Positions 1,090-22,955 of a DNA stretch of 35,061 nt are shown here, in pieces. Position numbers and translations under genes: made by a program. The stretch's first letter is position 1. Every line of letters begins with the position of its first letter. This DNA comes from Xenococcaceae cyanobacterium MO_167.B52 (GTDB lineage Bacteria > Cyanobacteriota > Cyanobacteriia > Cyanobacteriales > Xenococcaceae): positions 1-35,061 of the forward strand of contig JASJDB010000017.1 of NCBI GenBank assembly GCA_030065315.1, in the 5' to 3' direction. The notes beneath the pieces were generated by a model. It was not told the DNA's origin, made no database searches, and saw nothing but the letters and a program-made list of their open reading frames with translations.

Positions 1090-3972
1090 TTACTGCCAGT
1101 GAATACAATAAGCTGCTTCTTTAGGATTGGAACTCTGATCTTTTTTGAGTTCCTCTATATATTCTTGATTAGCTTTTTGATCAACTACCCATTCCCCATT
1201 TTCGTTATCCCAGGAGCCTTTATAAAAAGCTTTTTCCCAGTAACAAGCTAATTTGATTTGAGAAGGAGTAAGATTTTTAGCTTCAATAAGGTTGGCAAAA
1301 TTGAGGTTGGCAAAATTGAGGTTGACACGATTGAGGTTAGCACCATTGAGGGTGGCACCATTGAGGTTAGCATCAAAGAGGGTGGCATGATCCAAGTCAG
1401 CACCATTGAGGTTAGCCTCACTCAGGTTAGCATGATCCAAGTCAGCGCGATTGAGGTTAGCATCACTCAGGTTGGCACGATCCAAGTCAGCGCGATTGAG
1501 GGTAGCACCAAAGAGAGTGGCACCACTGAGGTTAGCACGATTGAGGTTGGCAAAGTTGAGGGCGACAAAATTGAGGTTGGCATCACTCAGATTGGCATCA
1601 CTCAGATTAGCATCAATCAGGTTGGCACCACTGAGATTGTAAGACTTCAAACTCTTTCTAGCCTTGACTAACCTTGCCAATGCCTCAATTCTTCCTTGAC
1701 AATACTCTTTGCCTTTACAGTTTTGAATTAGTATTTTATCCTCATTCCACCATAGCTCTCTAACTATAAAATATCCGACCATAGCTGTTCCAATTAGAGA
1801 GATGACTGAAAATAGTACCAGGGATTTTATGGTTTCTCTTTTTTGATATTTACTATTTTGAGCAGCAAATTTGGCAGTTAATTTTGACGGAAGATATTTT
1901 TTCTGTTGTTGTTTTTCCGAATAGTTGGCTTCTTGTAGTCTTGTTTTTGACAATAAATAATTGGTCTTTTGTTCTGAAGATTGCGAATCTCTAGCACCAT
2001 CTTCAATCTTGGGTTTTTGTCTAAGTAAATCGCGATATTCATCTAACCATTGACGGAGCAGTATCCAATTTTTAATTAAAGCTTCATAAGCTAGAGTAAT
2101 TTCTGCTGGTTGAGCCATTTCAGAGTTGGTCTCTATAGGATTTTTAGTAACAATAAGTTTTTCATCAGCTAATTTTTGCACAACCTGATCTATTAAATCT
2201 TGGTTATGTTTAGCTATCACTAAATCTTGTTTAAAAACTCCTCTATGGTTGTTTCCAGTTCCTTTACTGAAGGCAGTTAATGAAAGAAAAATATGTTGAG
2301 CGCAATCTTGTTCTTGTTTACTTAAACTTTTATAGACATCCGTAGCTCTTTGATTTAAGGTTCCCCCAATACCTCCTAATTGAGCATAAGCACTCAATTT
2401 TAATTGATTATTCTTTCTTCTTTGCCAAAGTTGAGTTAGGGTATCTTGTAGTAGAAGTAAACTATTTGGTGACCCTTCAAGATCTTTTAGGATCTCTTCA
2501 ACTAATCCTGATTCTAAGGTTAACTTAACTTTGGCAGCAGGTTTGATAATTGCTTGTCTTAGTTCCTCGGTTTCCATTGGAGGAATAGTAATTAGGTTAG
2601 CTTGGATTATTTCACCTAATCCACCGTATTCAGGTTGTACACATTTGCCAAAGAAATCAATTCTCATCGCCAGAATTAGACCTAGTTTATTATCGGTTTG
2701 GTCTAAAGCTTCTAAGAGACAGCGAAAGAAAGTTTCTCTCTCTTTTAAATCTTGACAACGAGTAAATGCTTCCTCAAATTGATCTACAACTAAAATCACC
2801 CGATTAGCACTGCTGGCTTGGACTAATTTTCGTAATCCTTCTCCTCCTTGTTTGAGCAAAGACTCGATGTGATCTAACTGGGTCGCTCGTTCAGGATCAG
2901 ATAAATTAGAATCAAGCCAGCAAAAAGCCAGGCTTTGTAGAGGATGTTGCCCTGGCAACATAATTTTAATCTTCCAATTCTGTGAACCAGCTAGTTTTCT
3001 CCCTAACTTCAATTGGTGTAATAGTCCTGCTCTCAAAACGGATGACTTGCCGCTACCAGATGCTCCCAGAATCGCGAGAAAATTATTTTGTCCAACTTGG
3101 TCAATGAGCTGAGCAGTTAACTTTTCTCTGCCATAAAAGTATTTAGGGTCTGACTCGTTAAAATCAAAATATTCTAATCCTTTGTAGGGACAAATATCAT
3201 CATTATCTTGTCCTTTAGAAACGGAAATTGGTGTATGTAAAGTACGGGTTAGATTAATAGGTGAGCCAAAGTTAGTAGATACCAGGTTTTGTTTTTCATG
3301 GCGTAAATTCTGATTAATGAATTCCATGAGACTGTAATTAGTGATCCATTCTTGGGGACAACGATTCGGGTCTAATCCCTCTAGAAGAACTTTGGTTAGA
3401 GCGGTGTAGTTACTCTTTAAACCTTCGTAAGATGCTTCAAATGCTCTAGAAGCAGCAATGAAACACCTATCTCTGGCTTGTCCTTGTTCTCCAGGGTCAG
3501 CTTCATTAAAATTGAGTAATCCTCCACTATGACAACAATCTAACCAAATAATTTGTTGTTTTATGGGACTTTCCTGAAGTAAGCGACGTAACCATTGTAG
3601 GGATAAACCATAAAAACTAAGACTAGGATTAACGTTGCTAGTAGCTAAAAACCCTTCCTGAATAGCTAAGTCTTCTCTGATTCCATGACCAGAAAAGTAA
3701 AACAATGCAGTATCAGGAATTTGTCTGCCCTGTGGTTTAAATAGTTTAACTAAAGCTTTCTTCAGTTGAGTTAAGCTGAGTTCTTGTGTGTTTGCTATGT
3801 ATGGCTTTCCTGTATCTGGGTCAATAGCTTCAGGCAGTCGGCAAACATTAAAATCACCATACTTTTCTAGAATTTCTGCGATCGCTTTTCCATGAATAGC
3901 GGGAGTATCAAGATTACGTAACCTGTGGTCTTGATATTGATTAATGCCAACAACTAACGCATCTCTACTCAT
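1090..3972 (-). CDS. Caspase-like protease with STAND NTPase, membrane segment and pentapeptide repeats
   Basis: A 960-residue multidomain protein. Residues 1-250 form a caspase-like (metacaspase/orthocaspase, peptidase C14) domain with the dyad His96 in FYFSGHG and Cys147 in WLDCCHSGG. Residues 260-650 form an nSTAND1-type NTPase: entry motif CPYKGLEYF, Walker A GASGSGKS (303-310), Walker B VILVVDQFEE (392-401), and a winged-helix-like end with YEALIKNWILLRQWL. A hydrophobic segment at about 716-738 predicts one membrane span. Residues 778-898 are about 24 pentapeptide repeats (A-N/D-L-x-x). The last 60 residues match the tail often seen on cyanobacterial pentapeptide proteins. STAND proteins are signal-triggered switches, so I infer a sensor-triggered protease for stress, cell death or defence. 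No partner gene is adjacent. Confidence 0.9.
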   Translation of the reverse strand: MSRDALVVGINQYQDHRLRNLDTPAIHGKAIAEILEKYGDFNVCRLPEAIDPDTGKPYIANTQELSLTQLKKALVKLFKPQGRQIPDTALFYFSGHGIREDLAIQEGFLATSNVNPSLSFYGLSLQWLRRLLQESPIKQQIIWLDCCHSGGLLNFNEADPGEQGQARDRCFIAASRAFEASYEGLKSNYTALTKVLLEGLDPNRCPQEWITNYSLMEFINQNLRHEKQNLVSTNFGSPINLTRTLHTPISVSKGQDNDDICPYKGLEYFDFNESDPKYFYGREKLTAQLIDQVGQNNFLAILGASGSGKSSVLRAGLLHQLKLGRKLAGSQNWKIKIMLPGQHPLQSLAFCWLDSNLSDPERATQLDHIESLLKQGGEGLRKLVQASSANRVILVVDQFEEAFTRCQDLKERETFFRCLLEALDQTDNKLGLILAMRIDFFGKCVQPEYGGLGEIIQANLITIPPMETEELRQAIIKPAAKVKLTLESGLVEEILKDLEGSPNSLLLLQDTLTQLWQRRKNNQLKLSAYAQLGGIGGTLNQRATDVYKSLSKQEQDCAQHIFLSLTAFSKGTGNNHRGVFKQDLVIAKHNQDLIDQVVQKLADEKLIVTKNPIETNSEMAQPAEITLAYEALIKNWILLRQWLDEYRDLLRQKPKIEDGARDSQSSEQKTNYLLSKTRLQEANYSEKQQQKKYLPSKLTAKFAAQNSKYQKRETIKSLVLFSVISLIGTAMVGYFIVRELWWNEDKILIQNCKGKEYCQGRIEALARLVKARKSLKSYNLSGANLIDANLSDANLSDANLNFVALNFANLNRANLSGATLFGATLNRADLDRANLSDANLNRADLDHANLSEANLNGADLDHATLFDANLNGATLNGANLNRVNLNFANLNFANLIEAKNLTPSQIKLACYWEKAFYKGSWDNENGEWVVDQKANQEYIEELKKDQSSNPKEAAYCIHWQ
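1279..1641 (-). repeat. 15-bp tandem repeats encoding pentapeptide repeats
   Basis: This stretch of the caspase gene is about 24 tandem 15-bp units, one per pentapeptide. Neighbouring units are very similar at the DNA level (read on the plus strand, variants of TTGAGGTTAGCACCA). The similarity also keeps plus-strand frames open across it (for example 1258-1671), which are artefacts of the repeat. Confidence 0.9.
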
Positions 3973-4255
3973 GATTATAAGGCTCTAAAAAAACTTTTAT
4001 GCTCATCTTTTGATGATGTAGAGCTATTTTTTCTAGTCTTTCTAAATAATACAAAGACAGTTGAAATGAGTATATAACCCCAAGACCAAGTAAATCTTAA
4101 AGAATTTCTTAATTTATAGAAAAGAGAGAGAGAAGACAAGGAAGAGAGGGGAGTTTTTTCTATCACTTCTTTCCATACTTCCCACACTCCCTAATTTCAT
4201 TAAGTTTTTAGGCTTATATTGCGATCACAATTATCTTGAGTATTTAATTTAATCT

Positions 4256-16652: not shown

Positions 16653-19600
16653 ATGATAAGTAACGTTCGTTTTGCTCCTTTGAATGTCTTCCTAAATCGC
16701 AACATAGAGGGAGGTTTAATTACAGATTTATCTACTAGACTTTATTGGGATATTCCTGTAAAAATTGATGGGGAAGAAGACCGTAACAGCAGACACAATA
16801 ATGATGAGATTTCTTTTTGGGCAGATTACGTAACAGCTCGAAAGAATGATTATATCTATGATGAGTTGTTCCGTTTAATTGGAGATTTAGATCCTGCTTT
16901 ATTGCCTGTAGGATATCCTAGGTCTGACCACCGTTTATTTTATGTAGATAAAGATAAAGATGTTGTTGCAGAAGATCGGGATAATAACCTTAAAACTGTT
17001 ACTAATATTGAGTTTCTTGGGGAAGTAAGCTTTGCTACCGGTTTGATTTTAGAGCAACCAGTAACAGTTAATAATATTGAATTTATCGGGGAAGGCAATA
17101 TTGCAACAGGAACTTTATTTCAAGATACAGAAGTGGGAGGCATTTCTGGTTTAACTTATGATGCTACTAGTGATACTTATTATGCTCTATCAGATGACAG
17201 GGGTAATAGAAATGATCCTCGCTTTTACACTGTAGATATCGATTTATCTGACGGTAGTTTAGATCAAGGGGATGTGGAGTTTCAAGAAGCTAAGACCTTA
17301 CTTGATTTTACAGGAGAAGCTTTTGAACTGGGCACTATCGACCCTGAAGGAATTGCTTTAGCTAATGACGGCACGCTTTTTATTTCCTCAGAAGGGGATG
17401 CAAATAACTCCATTCCTCCCTTTGTTAAACAGTTTAGTCTTGACGGACAAGTTTTTGACCGATTGCCAATACCTCGGAAATTTAGACCCCGTGCTAATGG
17501 AAATCGTGGAATTCGCAATAATCAAGCTTTTGAAAGTTTAACTATCACCCCTGATAATCGTTTTCTTTATACTGCGACAGAAAATGCTTTAATTCAAGAT
17601 GGAGAAAAATCATCTTTAGAAGAGGGAAGTCCTGTTAGGATACTAAAGTTTGATTTAGAAACAAGAAAAGCAGTAGGAGAATTTCTTTATTTTACCGACC
17701 CGATTCCCGTTACACCTGATCCTGTTGATGGCTTTGCTGATAATGGGTTGGTAGAGTTACTAGCCATAGATAATACGGGTACATTCCTCGCTTTAGAACG
17801 TTCTTTTGCTGTAGGTGTAGGAAATAATATTAGATTGTATGAAGTTAATCTTCAGGGTGCAACGGATATTAGCGGTGTTAGAAGGTTAACTAGAAGAAAT
17901 GGGGAATTAAAAGATGTCGATGCAGTAGTAGAAAAACGACTAATACTAGATTTTAGCGACTTAGGAATTATTCTAGATAATAGCGAAGCAGTATCTTTTG
18001 GGGAAACATTACCCGATGGCAGACAAAGTATTATTGTTACTAGCGATAATAATTTTAATGATGCCCAAAAAACCCAATTTCTAGCTTTTGCTATAGATAC
18101 AAAAACTATTCCTGCTATTACCCCTACTACAGAAACACCTCCAGAAATCAGATTTGGTAGTCCCGATAATCCCGATCCTAATAATGCCCCAGATGCAGAT
18201 GATCCCGCAATCTATGTTCATCCTGATAATTCCGAGGAGAGTTTTGTTATTACAACTTTCAAGAATGGTGGTTTGAGGGTTTATGACTTAGAGGGAAAAG
18301 AATTACAGAGTATTACTCCTGAAGATATTCGTTATAACAATGTAGATATTGCTTATGATGTCAACTATTCAGGGCGAATTATAGGGGGAGAAATAAAAAT
18401 TGATTTTGCTGTTGTATCTGATAGAGCTAACGATACATTAGCATTCTTTTCTATTGACCCAGAAACAAAAAGATTGAGTAAATGGAAAGAAGGATTTGAA
18501 TTTCCCGAATCCATTTTTGGTATAGACGACGGAGAAGCAACTGCTTATGGTCTAGCGACTTACACCAGTCTTGTAGATGGTAAAAATTATGTTTTCGTTT
18601 CCCAAGCTGACGGAAATAAAATCGCCCAAATAGAATTTAACCCAACTTTTGGTGCTGGGGACGAACCAATAGTTAATGCGAAAGTAGTCCGTATTATTGA
18701 AGTACCCGTTCCTGAAGGGGAAGAGCCAGAAGACTTTCAGGTAGAAGGAATGGTGGTTGATCGCGAAACAGGCTATCTTTATGTAGGACAAGAGGAATTC
18801 GGTATTTGGAAATATAACGCTGAACCTAAGGACAACATGGCACCTCTACTAGTTGATTCTGTAGAAGGTGACAACATCACAGCCGATGTAGAAGGATTAA
18901 CGATTTACTATGGTGAAGATGGCAATGGTTACTTACTCGCATCATCCCAAGGAAATAATACTTTTGCCATTTATGACCGCGCTGGAAGTAATAGTTATTT
19001 GGGAAGCTTTGCCGTTGAAGGAGTAGAAGAATCGGATGGAGCAGATATAATTAATGTTCCTCTGGGGGATAGTTATCCTGCGGGATTATTAGTAGTGCAA
19101 GATGGTTCCAATACTCCTCAAGTGGTCTTCCCTGACCCTGAAGATGGCGAAATTCAGAACTTTAACACCAATTTCAAATACGTTTCCCTTGCTGATTTTG
19201 CTGACATTTTTCCCAACTTACCTAAATACGATCCTAATGCTTTTGATCCTCGCAATCCCCAAGCGAGAACTTTAGTTAATGGTCTTGCCTCTGGAGATAC
19301 GACCCAAGATTCTACTGTTCTTTGGGCGCGTAGCACAGTCTTAGGAGATATCACTTTTGAATATAGTACTGATAGCAATTTCAATACTATCCTTGGCACA
19401 ATTAACACTCAAGTTATAGATACCACCCTTCCTATAAAAGTAGAAGTTATAGGCTTAGAAGCAGCAACAGATTACTATTACCGTGTCACTGATGCAGCAG
19501 GAGACAGTGAAATAGGAGAATTTACCACCTCCACAGAAATGGGAACAAACTTAGGTTTACGCTTTGGTGTAGCAGGAGACTGGCGTGGAGAATTAGCCCC

Positions 19601-22600
19601 TTATCCCGCAATTAGTAATGTACCTGAACGAGAGTTAGCCTTTTTTGTCGAACATGGAGATACTATCTATGCTGATGATGGTTCTGATGCAGTATTAAAT
19701 CCTGATGGCACTCAAAAATCACAAGTAGAAACAATTGAGGAATATCGAGCAAAACATAGTGAAGTTTACAGCCATCGCCTCGGTTATAATGTTTGGGCTG
19801 ATTTACGTGCCTCTACTTCTATTTTGGCAACAATTGACGACCACGAAGTAACTAATGACTTTGCTGGTGGTGCAGATGCTTCAACCGATAGTAGATTCCC
19901 TGAAACAGAAGGTTTAATTAACGATACTCAACTCTTTGAAACGGGGCTACAAGCTTTTCAAGAATATAACCCTCTACGAGATGAATTCTATGGTGAAACA
20001 GGAGACGAAGTTACCGCAGGAGAAAGAAAACTCTATCGTTACAATACCTATGGTAGCGACGCAGCAAGTTTTATTTTAGATACTCGTTCCTTCCGAGATG
20101 AAGGGTTGACTCCTGCTTCAGATATTACTAATCCCGAAGAAATCGGCAGAGTTTTGACTGAATCTATCACTTTAGACCGAACTTTACTAGGTAAAGCCCA
20201 ACTAGAGAACTTAAAGCAAGACTTAGTTACAGCAGATAAGGCAGGAATAACTTGGAAATTTATTATGGTTCCTGAACCTGCACAAAATCTCTTCCCAGGT
20301 ATCAATGTGGATAGCTATGAAGGTTATCTCAATGAGAGGGCAGAAATTCTCAGCTTTATTGAAGATAACGATATTGATAACGTTGTCTTTGTTGCTGCGG
20401 ATGTTCATATGACATCGGTAAATAATCTTACCTATCAAACTGAACCTCTTGGGGAACAAATAGCTACTAGTGTTTTTGAAATTACTACAGGTGCGGTAGC
20501 CTACGATCCTCCTACAGGAGAATTTTTAGCCAACTTCTTTACTGCTACTAATCCCGAACTCCAAGCCTTATACGATTCTCTTCCTATAGCTCCTGATCCT
20601 GACAACATCCCTAATGACAAAGATGATTTGGTTAAACAAGCTATCAATGACACCTTACTAACACCACTTGGTTTCGATCCTATTGGGTTAGATAGTAACT
20701 TACCTCAAGCAGAAGGCTTAATTGATGCAGAACTTCTCCAAGGAGATTATTACGTAGGACATAGTTACAGTTGGACAGAGTTTGATATTGATGCAGATAC
20801 TCAACAGCTACGAGTAACTACTTATGGTGTTGATAGTTACTCTGAAGCAGAAATTTTAGCTAATCCTAATGCTATTAACGATTTAACTCCCATCGTCTTA
20901 AGCGAATTTGTGGTTAATCCTACTATTGAAGAACCAGAAGCCCTAGATATTCTCTTAGTAAACGATGATGGTTTTGAAGCTGAAGGAATTGATGTTATCT
21001 ACGAAGGTTTAGTCGCAGCAGGATATGACGTTACCCTAGTCGCACCAAAAGCACAACAAAGTGGAAAAGGTACATTAATTAATGTTGAATCTATCTTCCA
21101 ACCTGTAGAAGTTGTTGAGTTTGAAGAGAATAAATGGTTTGTGGATGGTAGTCCCATAGTTACCACTCTCGCAGGATTAGACTTTATTCTCGATGGAGAA
21201 GAACCAGATTTAGTAATTTCGGGAATTAATGAAGGGGCAAATATTGGCGCAAATATTGCGATTTCCTCTGGTACTGTTAGTGCAGCTACCACCGCTACTA
21301 GAAGAGGGATTCCTGCGATCGCAATTAGTGCCAATGGTGACGCTCAAAACCTAAGCGAATCCTATGAAGTGGGTACGGAATTAGTTCTCGATTTAATTGA
21401 GGAGTTACAAGCCACTCAAGCACCAGGAGCAGAATTACTACCCGAAGGAGTAGGATTGAGCGTTAATATTCCCGAAAATCGCTCTGGTGGAGTCGCTTTA
21501 ACCGAATTAGATCAAACTTCTAACATTAATCTGAGCTTTGGAGAACTTCCTGAAGGTTTTGGCGAAGGTGCAGGAGTATTATTTAGCTTTAACGAGCCAA
21601 TTTCTCCCGATGAAATAAACGATCCTACCTCCGAAGGGGAAAACTTCCTCGCTGGCAATATTACCATAACTCCGATCGATGGTAGTTGGGTAGCTGATAG
21701 CAGCATCAGAGAAAGTATCCAATCTCGTTTCTTAGCGGAAATTGCGCTCACTAAAGTTACACCCTTAAACATCCTCTTAACTAATGATGATGGTTTTGAA
21801 GCAGAAGGAATCAAAACTATCTATAATGCTTTAACCGCAGCAGGACATAATGTTATTTTAGTCGCACCCGAAGCACAACAAAGCGGTACTGGTACGGCTT
21901 TAGATGTAGATGCTATCTTGCAACCTACAGAAGTGGTCAACTTTCAAGAGAATAAATGGTATGTTGACTCGGGAGTAAGAACTACTACCTGGGCTGGTTT
22001 AGACTTCATCCTAGAAGAAACCCCTGATTTAGTTATCTCTGGTATCAATGAAGGAGAAAATATCGGTGCTGGTGGTGCAGTTTCCTCTGGTACTGTCAGT
22101 GCAGCCGTTACCGCCATTTTAAGAGACGTTCCAGCGATCGCAGTTAGTGCTGGTATCGATTTAACTGACCCCGAAAGAACCGCTACTGGGGTTGCCTATG
22201 AAGAAGGTTCGGAATTTATTACCCAGTTAATTGCCCAATTGCAGGCTACTCAAGGAGATTCTGAGACAATTCTTCCTGAAGGTATTGGCTTGAGTGTTAA
22301 TATCCCCGTCCGTTTCCCTCAAGGCGTTGAGAGTATTCAAGGAGTAGCCTTTACCGAACCCGACGGGATAGAACCTTTTATCATTGATTTTGGTGAAGTA
22401 GAAGGCGGTGCTGGGTTGCGTTTTGCCCCCTTCCAGTTAACCGATGGTATTACTATTGCTCCTCTATCCGAAGGAGGAAAATTCCTCTCTGGTTTTATTA
22501 CTGTAACTGCAATTGACGGAAACTGGACGGCAAACAGTGAACAAGTGGCAGCGATAGGAGATCGTATTGACTCTCTATTACTTCCACCAGAAGTATCTGA

Positions 22601-22955
22601 GGAAACTATTTTTGGTACTCTCAATGATGACATTATCAAGATCAATGGCTCAAACAATTTAGTATTGGCTGGTATTGGTGATGACACTGTTAATTTATTT
22701 GCCAGTGGCGGAAATAATACCGTTTATGGTGGTGTTGGTTATGATATCTTCCAACCTAGTACCGAATTCCCCGATACTATTGCTGATTTTGAACTTGGCG
22801 GGGATGTAATTGGTATTGCTGGTGCTAGTTTTGAAGATTTAACTATTACTGCTGATGGAAATAATGTTGTAATTGGTTTGGCTGGTAAGGATATTGCCTT
22901 TTTAGTTGGTGTTAATGCTAATGACTTAACTGTTGACAGTTTTGCTTTTAGTTAA
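16653..22955 (+). CDS. Giant RTX-tailed phosphatase: phytase-like, beta-propeller phytase, PhoD and two SurE domains
   Basis: A 2100-residue protein. Residues 1-115 are unassigned. About 119-485 is a phytase-like esterase domain (VGGISGLTYD at 161-170, IDPEGIAL). About 496-820 is a beta-propeller (3-)phytase domain with DADDPAIYVHP at 514. About 860-1420 is a PhoD alkaline phosphatase with its N-terminal Ig-like part (VNGLASGD, LWAR) and metal motifs AGDWRGE (Asp976), EHGDTIYADD (Asp1003), DDHEVTNDF (1062-1070), AADVHM (Asp1250, His1252). Two SurE nucleotidase domains follow: NDDG Asp1438/1439 with SGINEG Asn1526, and NDDG Asp1712/1713 with SGINEG Asn1799. About 1985-2100 is an RTX calcium-binding tail ending in a typical cyanobacterial type I secretion terminus. 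No N-terminal signal peptide. Inferred role: extracellular phosphate release from phytate, phosphodiesters and nucleotides. Confidence 0.93.
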   Translation: MISNVRFAPLNVFLNRNIEGGLITDLSTRLYWDIPVKIDGEEDRNSRHNNDEISFWADYVTARKNDYIYDELFRLIGDLDPALLPVGYPRSDHRLFYVDKDKDVVAEDRDNNLKTVTNIEFLGEVSFATGLILEQPVTVNNIEFIGEGNIATGTLFQDTEVGGISGLTYDATSDTYYALSDDRGNRNDPRFYTVDIDLSDGSLDQGDVEFQEAKTLLDFTGEAFELGTIDPEGIALANDGTLFISSEGDANNSIPPFVKQFSLDGQVFDRLPIPRKFRPRANGNRGIRNNQAFESLTITPDNRFLYTATENALIQDGEKSSLEEGSPVRILKFDLETRKAVGEFLYFTDPIPVTPDPVDGFADNGLVELLAIDNTGTFLALERSFAVGVGNNIRLYEVNLQGATDISGVRRLTRRNGELKDVDAVVEKRLILDFSDLGIILDNSEAVSFGETLPDGRQSIIVTSDNNFNDAQKTQFLAFAIDTKTIPAITPTTETPPEIRFGSPDNPDPNNAPDADDPAIYVHPDNSEESFVITTFKNGGLRVYDLEGKELQSITPEDIRYNNVDIAYDVNYSGRIIGGEIKIDFAVVSDRANDTLAFFSIDPETKRLSKWKEGFEFPESIFGIDDGEATAYGLATYTSLVDGKNYVFVSQADGNKIAQIEFNPTFGAGDEPIVNAKVVRIIEVPVPEGEEPEDFQVEGMVVDRETGYLYVGQEEFGIWKYNAEPKDNMAPLLVDSVEGDNITADVEGLTIYYGEDGNGYLLASSQGNNTFAIYDRAGSNSYLGSFAVEGVEESDGADIINVPLGDSYPAGLLVVQDGSNTPQVVFPDPEDGEIQNFNTNFKYVSLADFADIFPNLPKYDPNAFDPRNPQARTLVNGLASGDTTQDSTVLWARSTVLGDITFEYSTDSNFNTILGTINTQVIDTTLPIKVEVIGLEAATDYYYRVTDAAGDSEIGEFTTSTEMGTNLGLRFGVAGDWRGELAPYPAISNVPERELAFFVEHGDTIYADDGSDAVLNPDGTQKSQVETIEEYRAKHSEVYSHRLGYNVWADLRASTSILATIDDHEVTNDFAGGADASTDSRFPETEGLINDTQLFETGLQAFQEYNPLRDEFYGETGDEVTAGERKLYRYNTYGSDAASFILDTRSFRDEGLTPASDITNPEEIGRVLTESITLDRTLLGKAQLENLKQDLVTADKAGITWKFIMVPEPAQNLFPGINVDSYEGYLNERAEILSFIEDNDIDNVVFVAADVHMTSVNNLTYQTEPLGEQIATSVFEITTGAVAYDPPTGEFLANFFTATNPELQALYDSLPIAPDPDNIPNDKDDLVKQAINDTLLTPLGFDPIGLDSNLPQAEGLIDAELLQGDYYVGHSYSWTEFDIDADTQQLRVTTYGVDSYSEAEILANPNAINDLTPIVLSEFVVNPTIEEPEALDILLVNDDGFEAEGIDVIYEGLVAAGYDVTLVAPKAQQSGKGTLINVESIFQPVEVVEFEENKWFVDGSPIVTTLAGLDFILDGEEPDLVISGINEGANIGANIAISSGTVSAATTATRRGIPAIAISANGDAQNLSESYEVGTELVLDLIEELQATQAPGAELLPEGVGLSVNIPENRSGGVALTELDQTSNINLSFGELPEGFGEGAGVLFSFNEPISPDEINDPTSEGENFLAGNITITPIDGSWVADSSIRESIQSRFLAEIALTKVTPLNILLTNDDGFEAEGIKTIYNALTAAGHNVILVAPEAQQSGTGTALDVDAILQPTEVVNFQENKWYVDSGVRTTTWAGLDFILEETPDLVISGINEGENIGAGGAVSSGTVSAAVTAILRDVPAIAVSAGIDLTDPERTATGVAYEEGSEFITQLIAQLQATQGDSETILPEGIGLSVNIPVRFPQGVESIQGVAFTEPDGIEPFIIDFGEVEGGAGLRFAPFQLTDGITIAPLSEGGKFLSGFITVTAIDGNWTANSEQVAAIGDRIDSLLLPPEVSEETIFGTLNDDIIKINGSNNLVLAGIGDDTVNLFASGGNNTVYGGVGYDIFQPSTEFPDTIADFELGGDVIGIAGASFEDLTITADGNNVVIGLAGKDIAFLVGVNANDLTVDSFAFS

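Follow-up and report, generated by a model that had tools for sequence, protein, structure and literature searches.

Cyanobacterial orthocaspases that join a caspase domain to AAA_16, TM, WD40 or pentapeptide domains have been described previously (PMC7475262, PMC8283722, PMC3501461, PMC2853523), and membrane orthocaspases acting as initiator-like proteases with sensors on the outside are also prior art (PMC7475262). The orthocaspases Ava_0039, Ava_3079 and GEI7407_1667 resemble the protein analysed here in that they combine a His/Cys caspase, a P-loop NTPase, a membrane helix and C-terminal repeats proposed to lie outside. Pentapeptide fusions are already listed in orthocaspase surveys, whereas partner genes, the swapping of sensors between sisters and a Cys-capped solenoid as topology evidence are absent from these surveys and are added by the caspase-nSTAND1 family described below. 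Another related arrangement is the EACC1 two-gene membrane system (system 4, PMC7159879), in which an N-terminal caspase with a highly variable C-terminus is likewise accompanied by a 5′ gene for a small membrane protein. Trypco1 pairs with trypsin-like peptidases in VMAP/MoxR systems (PMC7159879) and is described elsewhere as an adapter near DGR targets (DGR clade 5A; PMC10907252). In Canu, a bacterial caspase proteolytically activates its partner in phage defence (PMC12799240).

The window, i.e., the whole stretch of 35,061 nucleotides analysed here, derives from an assembly of 5.25 Mb in 449 contigs (79% complete; G000). We identified one gene of this type in it, with the following features.

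1090..3972, minus strand: caspase-nSTAND1-TM-pentapeptide gene encoding 960 aa, a single ORF with an ATG start, domains by Pfam
3298..3960, minus strand: caspase domain (aa 5-225; PF00656, 2.9e-12), MALT1-like fold
3685..3687, minus strand: codon of the catalytic His96, in GHG (95-97), conserved among relatives
3532..3534, minus strand: codon of the catalytic Cys147, in DCCHSG, conserved among relatives
1966..3189, minus strand: nSTAND1 NTPase (aa 262-669; PF20703, 3.5e-109)
3043..3066, minus strand: Walker A motif GASGSGKS (303-310), Lys309 in 72/72 aligned sequences
2776..2793, minus strand: Walker B motif LVVDQF (394-399), Asp397 in 72/72 aligned sequences
1762..1821, minus strand: membrane helix (~aa 718-737), by hydropathy and a family-wide Lys/Arg bias
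1699..1719, minus strand: Cys752/Cys758 pair ahead of the solenoid, recurrent in relatives
1288..1641, minus strand: pentapeptide solenoid (~aa 778-895), by PF00805, DNA repeat arrays and a solenoid model
1093..1287, minus strand: C-terminal cap with the Cys910/Cys956 pair, by cysteine comparison with relatives

The preliminary description had read this gene as a protease with an intact His96/Cys147 dyad, joined to a STAND NTPase whose Walker motifs are intact and further to a membrane helix and a long pentapeptide solenoid. Our analysis confirmed the first three elements: Peptidase_C14 scored 47.2 bits against a curated Pfam cut-off of 21.4, nSTAND1 scored 366 bits against 27.1, the dyad and Walker residues lie in the motifs listed above, and the strongest hydrophobic stretch of the protein coincides with residues 718–737. 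The solenoid is likewise present (Pfam Pentapeptide, 5.7e-25), but it is of moderate length rather than long, with ~24 pentapeptides forming six coils, and is shorter than those of several relatives. The DNA beneath it consists of repeat arrays with periods of 15 and 45, and a plus-strand ORF opposite the repeat (1258–1671) is most simply read as a by-product of these arrays. DNA mimicry of the Qnr/MfpA type was considered for the solenoid and found to be unsupported, the solenoid being Asn-rich and merely mildly acidic. The AlphaFold2 model of the protein reached a mean pLDDT of 80.9 and a pTM of 0.45, so the domain arrangement is not fixed by it. In Foldseek comparisons, this model matched the MALT1 caspase domain (3v4o, TMt 0.69), Cdc6/Orc1 AAA+ proteins and several pentapeptide solenoids, among them that of the lumenal Rfr protein (2g0y; TMt 0.75, rmsd 0.8). 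A sequence profile search returned no solved structure for this caspase subfamily.

With C14 above its cut-off and the His/Cys dyad intact, the window protein would be classed among the cyanobacterial orthocaspases. It also matches the nSTAND1 profile and carries Walker A and B, but lacks the motifs LGEGTEDTRR and HEALIRxW in their family form. In contrast to the EACC1 system, its caspase falls below the NF047832 cut-off (89.9 vs 140 bits); the 152-aa membrane protein that accompanies some relatives stays below every Pfam cut-off in its intact homologues; and caspase-nSTAND1 loci most often carry a divergent Trypco1 gene instead. Where an adjacent EACC1 gene would lie, the window has only a remnant of the 152-aa gene. 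As in the Trypco1 conflict systems, Trypco1 adjoins a peptidase gene in caspase-nSTAND1 loci, but here it is divergent to that gene and usually occurs without MoxR; within the window, no adjoining MoxR, vWA or VMAP genes of the ternary VMAP/MoxR system were found. Canu shares the bacterial caspase of MALT1-like fold, which there acts on a separately encoded partner, whereas the window gene has an NTPase and a membrane-anchored solenoid instead. Pfam matches of the window gene and its near neighbours included no MBL-fold nuclease or Ig-like domain, and the gene is not a Canu member.

Matches to the protein were identified in 59 of 100 related genomes, only a minority of them aligning from residue 1 through both domains, and further named loci came from scans of genome contigs and plasmids. 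The window genome itself contains a paralogue with 66–70% identity on contig C183, where the contig ends and the sequence breaks off near residue 138. The preliminary description had named loss of the dyad among orthologues as grounds for abandoning its reading; the dyad is kept in 55/56 of the aligned single-caspase sequences, the window copy included. The C-terminus following this core is changeable. Pentapeptides alone are found in the window protein, L041, L040, L059, L061, L062, L064 and L077, combined with thioredoxin in L039 and with PDZ in L044, and other members end in an FGE-sulfatase domain (L043), TPR (L068), WD40 or several membrane helices (L052). The thioredoxin domain of the same-genus relative L039 (L039:1640-4864) lies behind the pentapeptide part and carries a CGSC motif. 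In a quick tree with SH-aLRT support only, two pairs of sisters with starred support differ at this end, namely L043 (FGE) and L044 (pentapeptide plus PDZ), and L059 (pentapeptide) and L143 (WD40). A constant core with a C-terminus that changes even between sister genes is a new observation, and the same logic of constant core and variable sensor is found in conflict systems.

Large WD40 relatives (L082-L113, e.g., L085:2823 and L105:1885) contain two tandem caspase domains, the first with intact motifs (FSGHG, LDACHSG) and the second degenerate; the protein L003 on contig C32 of the window genome has the tandem layout too, and a common divergent ORF (243–410 aa) lies upstream of the tandem-caspase genes L094, L105 and L113. 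We had considered this clade of ~1700-aa proteins as caspases with dead dyads and no partners, and rejected this because the proteins are tandem caspases with an intact first copy; a strong tie between dyad and partner was therefore dropped. True dyad losses are found in L090, L139 and L161, all without a recognised partner, whereas L140 and L159, relatives of L139, retain both dyad and partner. An association of dyad loss with partner absence is thus suggestive only.

Of the 58 intact single-caspase loci, 44 have a recognised partner directly upstream of the caspase gene; owing to relatedness among the loci, the counts are not independent. Trypco1 is the partner in 26/58 loci, always divergent and with 98 bp as the median gap, where chance would give ~0.03 loci; it is also found divergently upstream in several plasmid relatives. 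An unnamed divergent pair of genes takes this position in 14/58 loci (among them L083:6468-8470, L093, L074, L080, L141, L048, L051, L055 and L056). It encodes a ~160-aa protein and a protein of 435–515 aa with C-terminal membrane helices; for the larger protein we found no Pfam or NCBIfam match and a best PDB match to CorA that is weak (E 0.007) and based on a poor model (pLDDT 63). The co-directional 152-aa membrane protein is the partner in 4/58 loci, counting the window remnant, and in L039 and L040 its gene ends 2–4 bp ahead of the caspase ATG. The remaining 14/58 loci have no recognised partner, and no fourth partner common to them was found. The association of caspase-nSTAND1 genes with upstream partners is newly noticed here, and the divergent pairing with Trypco1 was not found in the main text of the two papers identified that name Trypco1.

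The topology of the protein was predicted from hydropathy, charge and cysteines. Among the 42 relatives that have a helix, 39 carry more Lys and Arg in the 15 residues before it than after it, and most pentapeptide members carry two pairs of cysteines past the helix, one ahead of the solenoid and one in the cap. A second pentapeptide group also has cysteine pairs, at a different spacing, and L040, L059, L062 and L064 are without one or both. In the lumenal Rfr32, a disulfide is found within the C-terminal cap (PMC8145042). Because of the positive-inside bias and the cysteine pairs around the solenoid, the solenoid is predicted to be extracytoplasmic, i.e., in the periplasm or the thylakoid lumen, and the cysteine-capped solenoid as putative evidence of topology is new. 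Together with the constant core and swappable C-terminus, these features support the arrangement of effector, switch, membrane and sensor that had been proposed from the window sequence, whereas the accompanying idea of triggered death or defence remains at the level of plausibility.

The genes around the window copy are of the housekeeping type, including pdxH, an esterase, gamma-glutamyltranspeptidase, a response regulator, phycobilisome linkers and similar genes, and a defence island at this site was rejected on these grounds. PADLOC returned a generic caspase model and two weak partial NTPase matches for the window. Elsewhere in the window, 16653–22955 encodes a 2100-aa multi-phosphatase fusion with phytase-like esterase, phytase, PhoD and SurE domains. 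The earlier suggestion was to look for the same architecture and its neighbours in defence islands. The architecture recurs in relatives, and the chromosomal neighbours of seven of them gave single matches, such as TIR, CHAT and a type I specificity subunit, among 56 proteins, a thin defence-like signal. Conjugative or mobilizable plasmids carry other relatives in Acaryochloris, Gloeothece and elsewhere; on the conjugative plasmid pREC3 of Acaryochloris (L159:11723-14247), MoxR ATPase and FGE-family genes of the sort known from ternary conflict systems lie near a pair of Trypco1 and caspase-pentapeptide genes. No relatives were confirmed on viral contigs, and four phage records gave partial matches only. 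The caspase gene is absent at the pdxH neighbourhood of three relatives (G001, G003 and G007), as far as these were fetched. The gene is accessory, being patchy, sometimes carried on conjugative plasmids and missing beside pdxH in these three relatives, and it does not behave as the conserved essential housekeeping gene that would have spoken against the original reading.

Based on these comparisons, we hypothesised that the genes form a family of accessory, membrane-anchored caspase-STAND switches in cyanobacteria, in which an outer signal passes through the NTPase to the caspase under the control of a partner, with the window copy most likely a decaying member; we regard this account as evenly balanced between being right and wrong. 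The caspase and NTPase would lie on the cytoplasmic side, and the solenoid would be exposed to the periplasm or the thylakoid lumen. A ligand, or a signal of damage, reaching the solenoid would lead to nucleotide exchange and clustering of the NTPase, and the clustered caspase domains would become active and cleave cytoplasmic targets, resulting in cell arrest or death. The upstream partner of the relatives, whether Trypco1, the unnamed pair or the 152-aa protein, would probably restrain the protease, couple to it or be cut by it. A conflict or signalling switch is plausible for the family, as is a role in defence or death. That these genes constitute a two-part membrane switch not described before, in which one of several interchangeable partners holds the protease back or serves as its substrate while the extracytoplasmic sensor is swapped freely, is put forward tentatively, as slightly short of an even prospect.

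The housekeeping neighbours of the window gene and the thin defence signal around its relatives would also fit a membrane signalling protease that serves stress or cell-envelope physiology instead of death or defence, its solenoid scaffolding or sensing the state of the envelope or lumen; cyanobacterial pentapeptide proteins have physiological roles, as with HglK at septa (PMC8145042), and RfrA likewise. The patchy distribution, plasmid carriage and swapping of sensors are less easily reconciled with such a role, as are the partnership with Trypco1, a protein of conflict systems (PMC7159879), and the single plasmid copy that lies next to MoxR/FGE genes, and we consider it unlikely, if far from negligible. 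The caspase could alternatively act in processing and release the C-terminal domain or the partner as the effector, the partner giving the signal and the variable C-terminus being the payload. Kaur et al. (2020) proposed auto-proteolytic deployment of effectors where caspase proteins vary at the C-terminus and a 5′ gene encodes a small membrane protein (PMC7159879), and the 152-aa gene of L039 and L040, which ends just ahead of the caspase ATG, is in accordance with this. However, pentapeptide, WD40 and TPR domains are binding modules and not known killers, the solenoid is predicted to lie across the membrane from the protease, and the EACC1-associated caspase model remains below its cut-off, which together make this the most improbable of the readings considered. 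Three further features concern the state of the window copy.

3975..4121, minus strand: remnant of the decayed 152-aa membrane partner, by tblastn with the L039/L040 partner; profile match 1.1e-11
2242..2271, minus strand: eroded nSTAND1 motif (aa 568-577), LGEGTEDTRR in the family and FSKGTGNNHR in the window, by point changes with no frameshift
2065..2097, minus strand: eroded nSTAND1 motif (aa 626-636), DVAHEALIRxW in the family and TLAYEALIKNW in the window, by alignment with the family

The remnant occupies the normal position of the partner (tblastn) and consists of aa 24–47 at 4047–4118, with 83% identity to the L039 partner, and aa 131–149 at 3986–4042 in another frame; the remainder is missing. 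A profile search at full sensitivity found no trace of Trypco1 in the upstream gap of 746 bp, the remnant there being that of the 152-aa partner, and no Trypco1 was found in the 79% complete assembly. Contigs C217 and C253 of the window genome also contain fragments of the 152-aa partner, as does G002:C156, whereas on G008:C133 (L152:6716-7186) it is intact and adjoins no caspase gene. The window protein departs from the family at 21 of 199 conserved columns, compared with 3 of 194 in L039, its closest relative, and at most 5.6% in every other member; both nSTAND1 motifs are largely kept in the C183 paralogue and relatives, and a frameshift behind the odd segment was ruled out. In relative-rate tests the window copy evolved faster than L039 (p 0.0002–0.001), with a weak difference from the C183 paralogue (p 0.01–0.09).

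Because its partner is fragmentary and conserved nSTAND1 motifs are eroded, the window copy, although its family is live, is probably in decay or has become independent of a partner, most likely the former; a less eroded paralogue lies on C183. The window copy's dN/dS below 0.3, open frame and intact dyad and Walker motifs imply that decay is recent or partial at most. The same signs of constraint would suit a copy that has changed function and works without a partner, the fast change in nSTAND1 being adaptation and not decay. The changes cluster, however, at positions conserved elsewhere in the family, partner fragments persist where the partner normally lies, and further partner remnants occur elsewhere in the genome, so this possibility strikes us as rather unlikely. 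In a further relative, L156 (G017:C36), a stop codon lies just past the helix with the pentapeptide part in frame and readable behind it; loss is therefore recurrent.

With its partner decayed and nSTAND1 eroded, the window copy is a poor test case, and intact relatives are the suitable material. If the proposed switch is correct, cyanobacteria would own an outside-in caspase switch, in which an exchangeable domain on the far side of the membrane acts by way of an NTPase on an inner protease that a small partner also controls, and Trypco1, for which we found no tested function in the literature, would gain a concrete and testable role.
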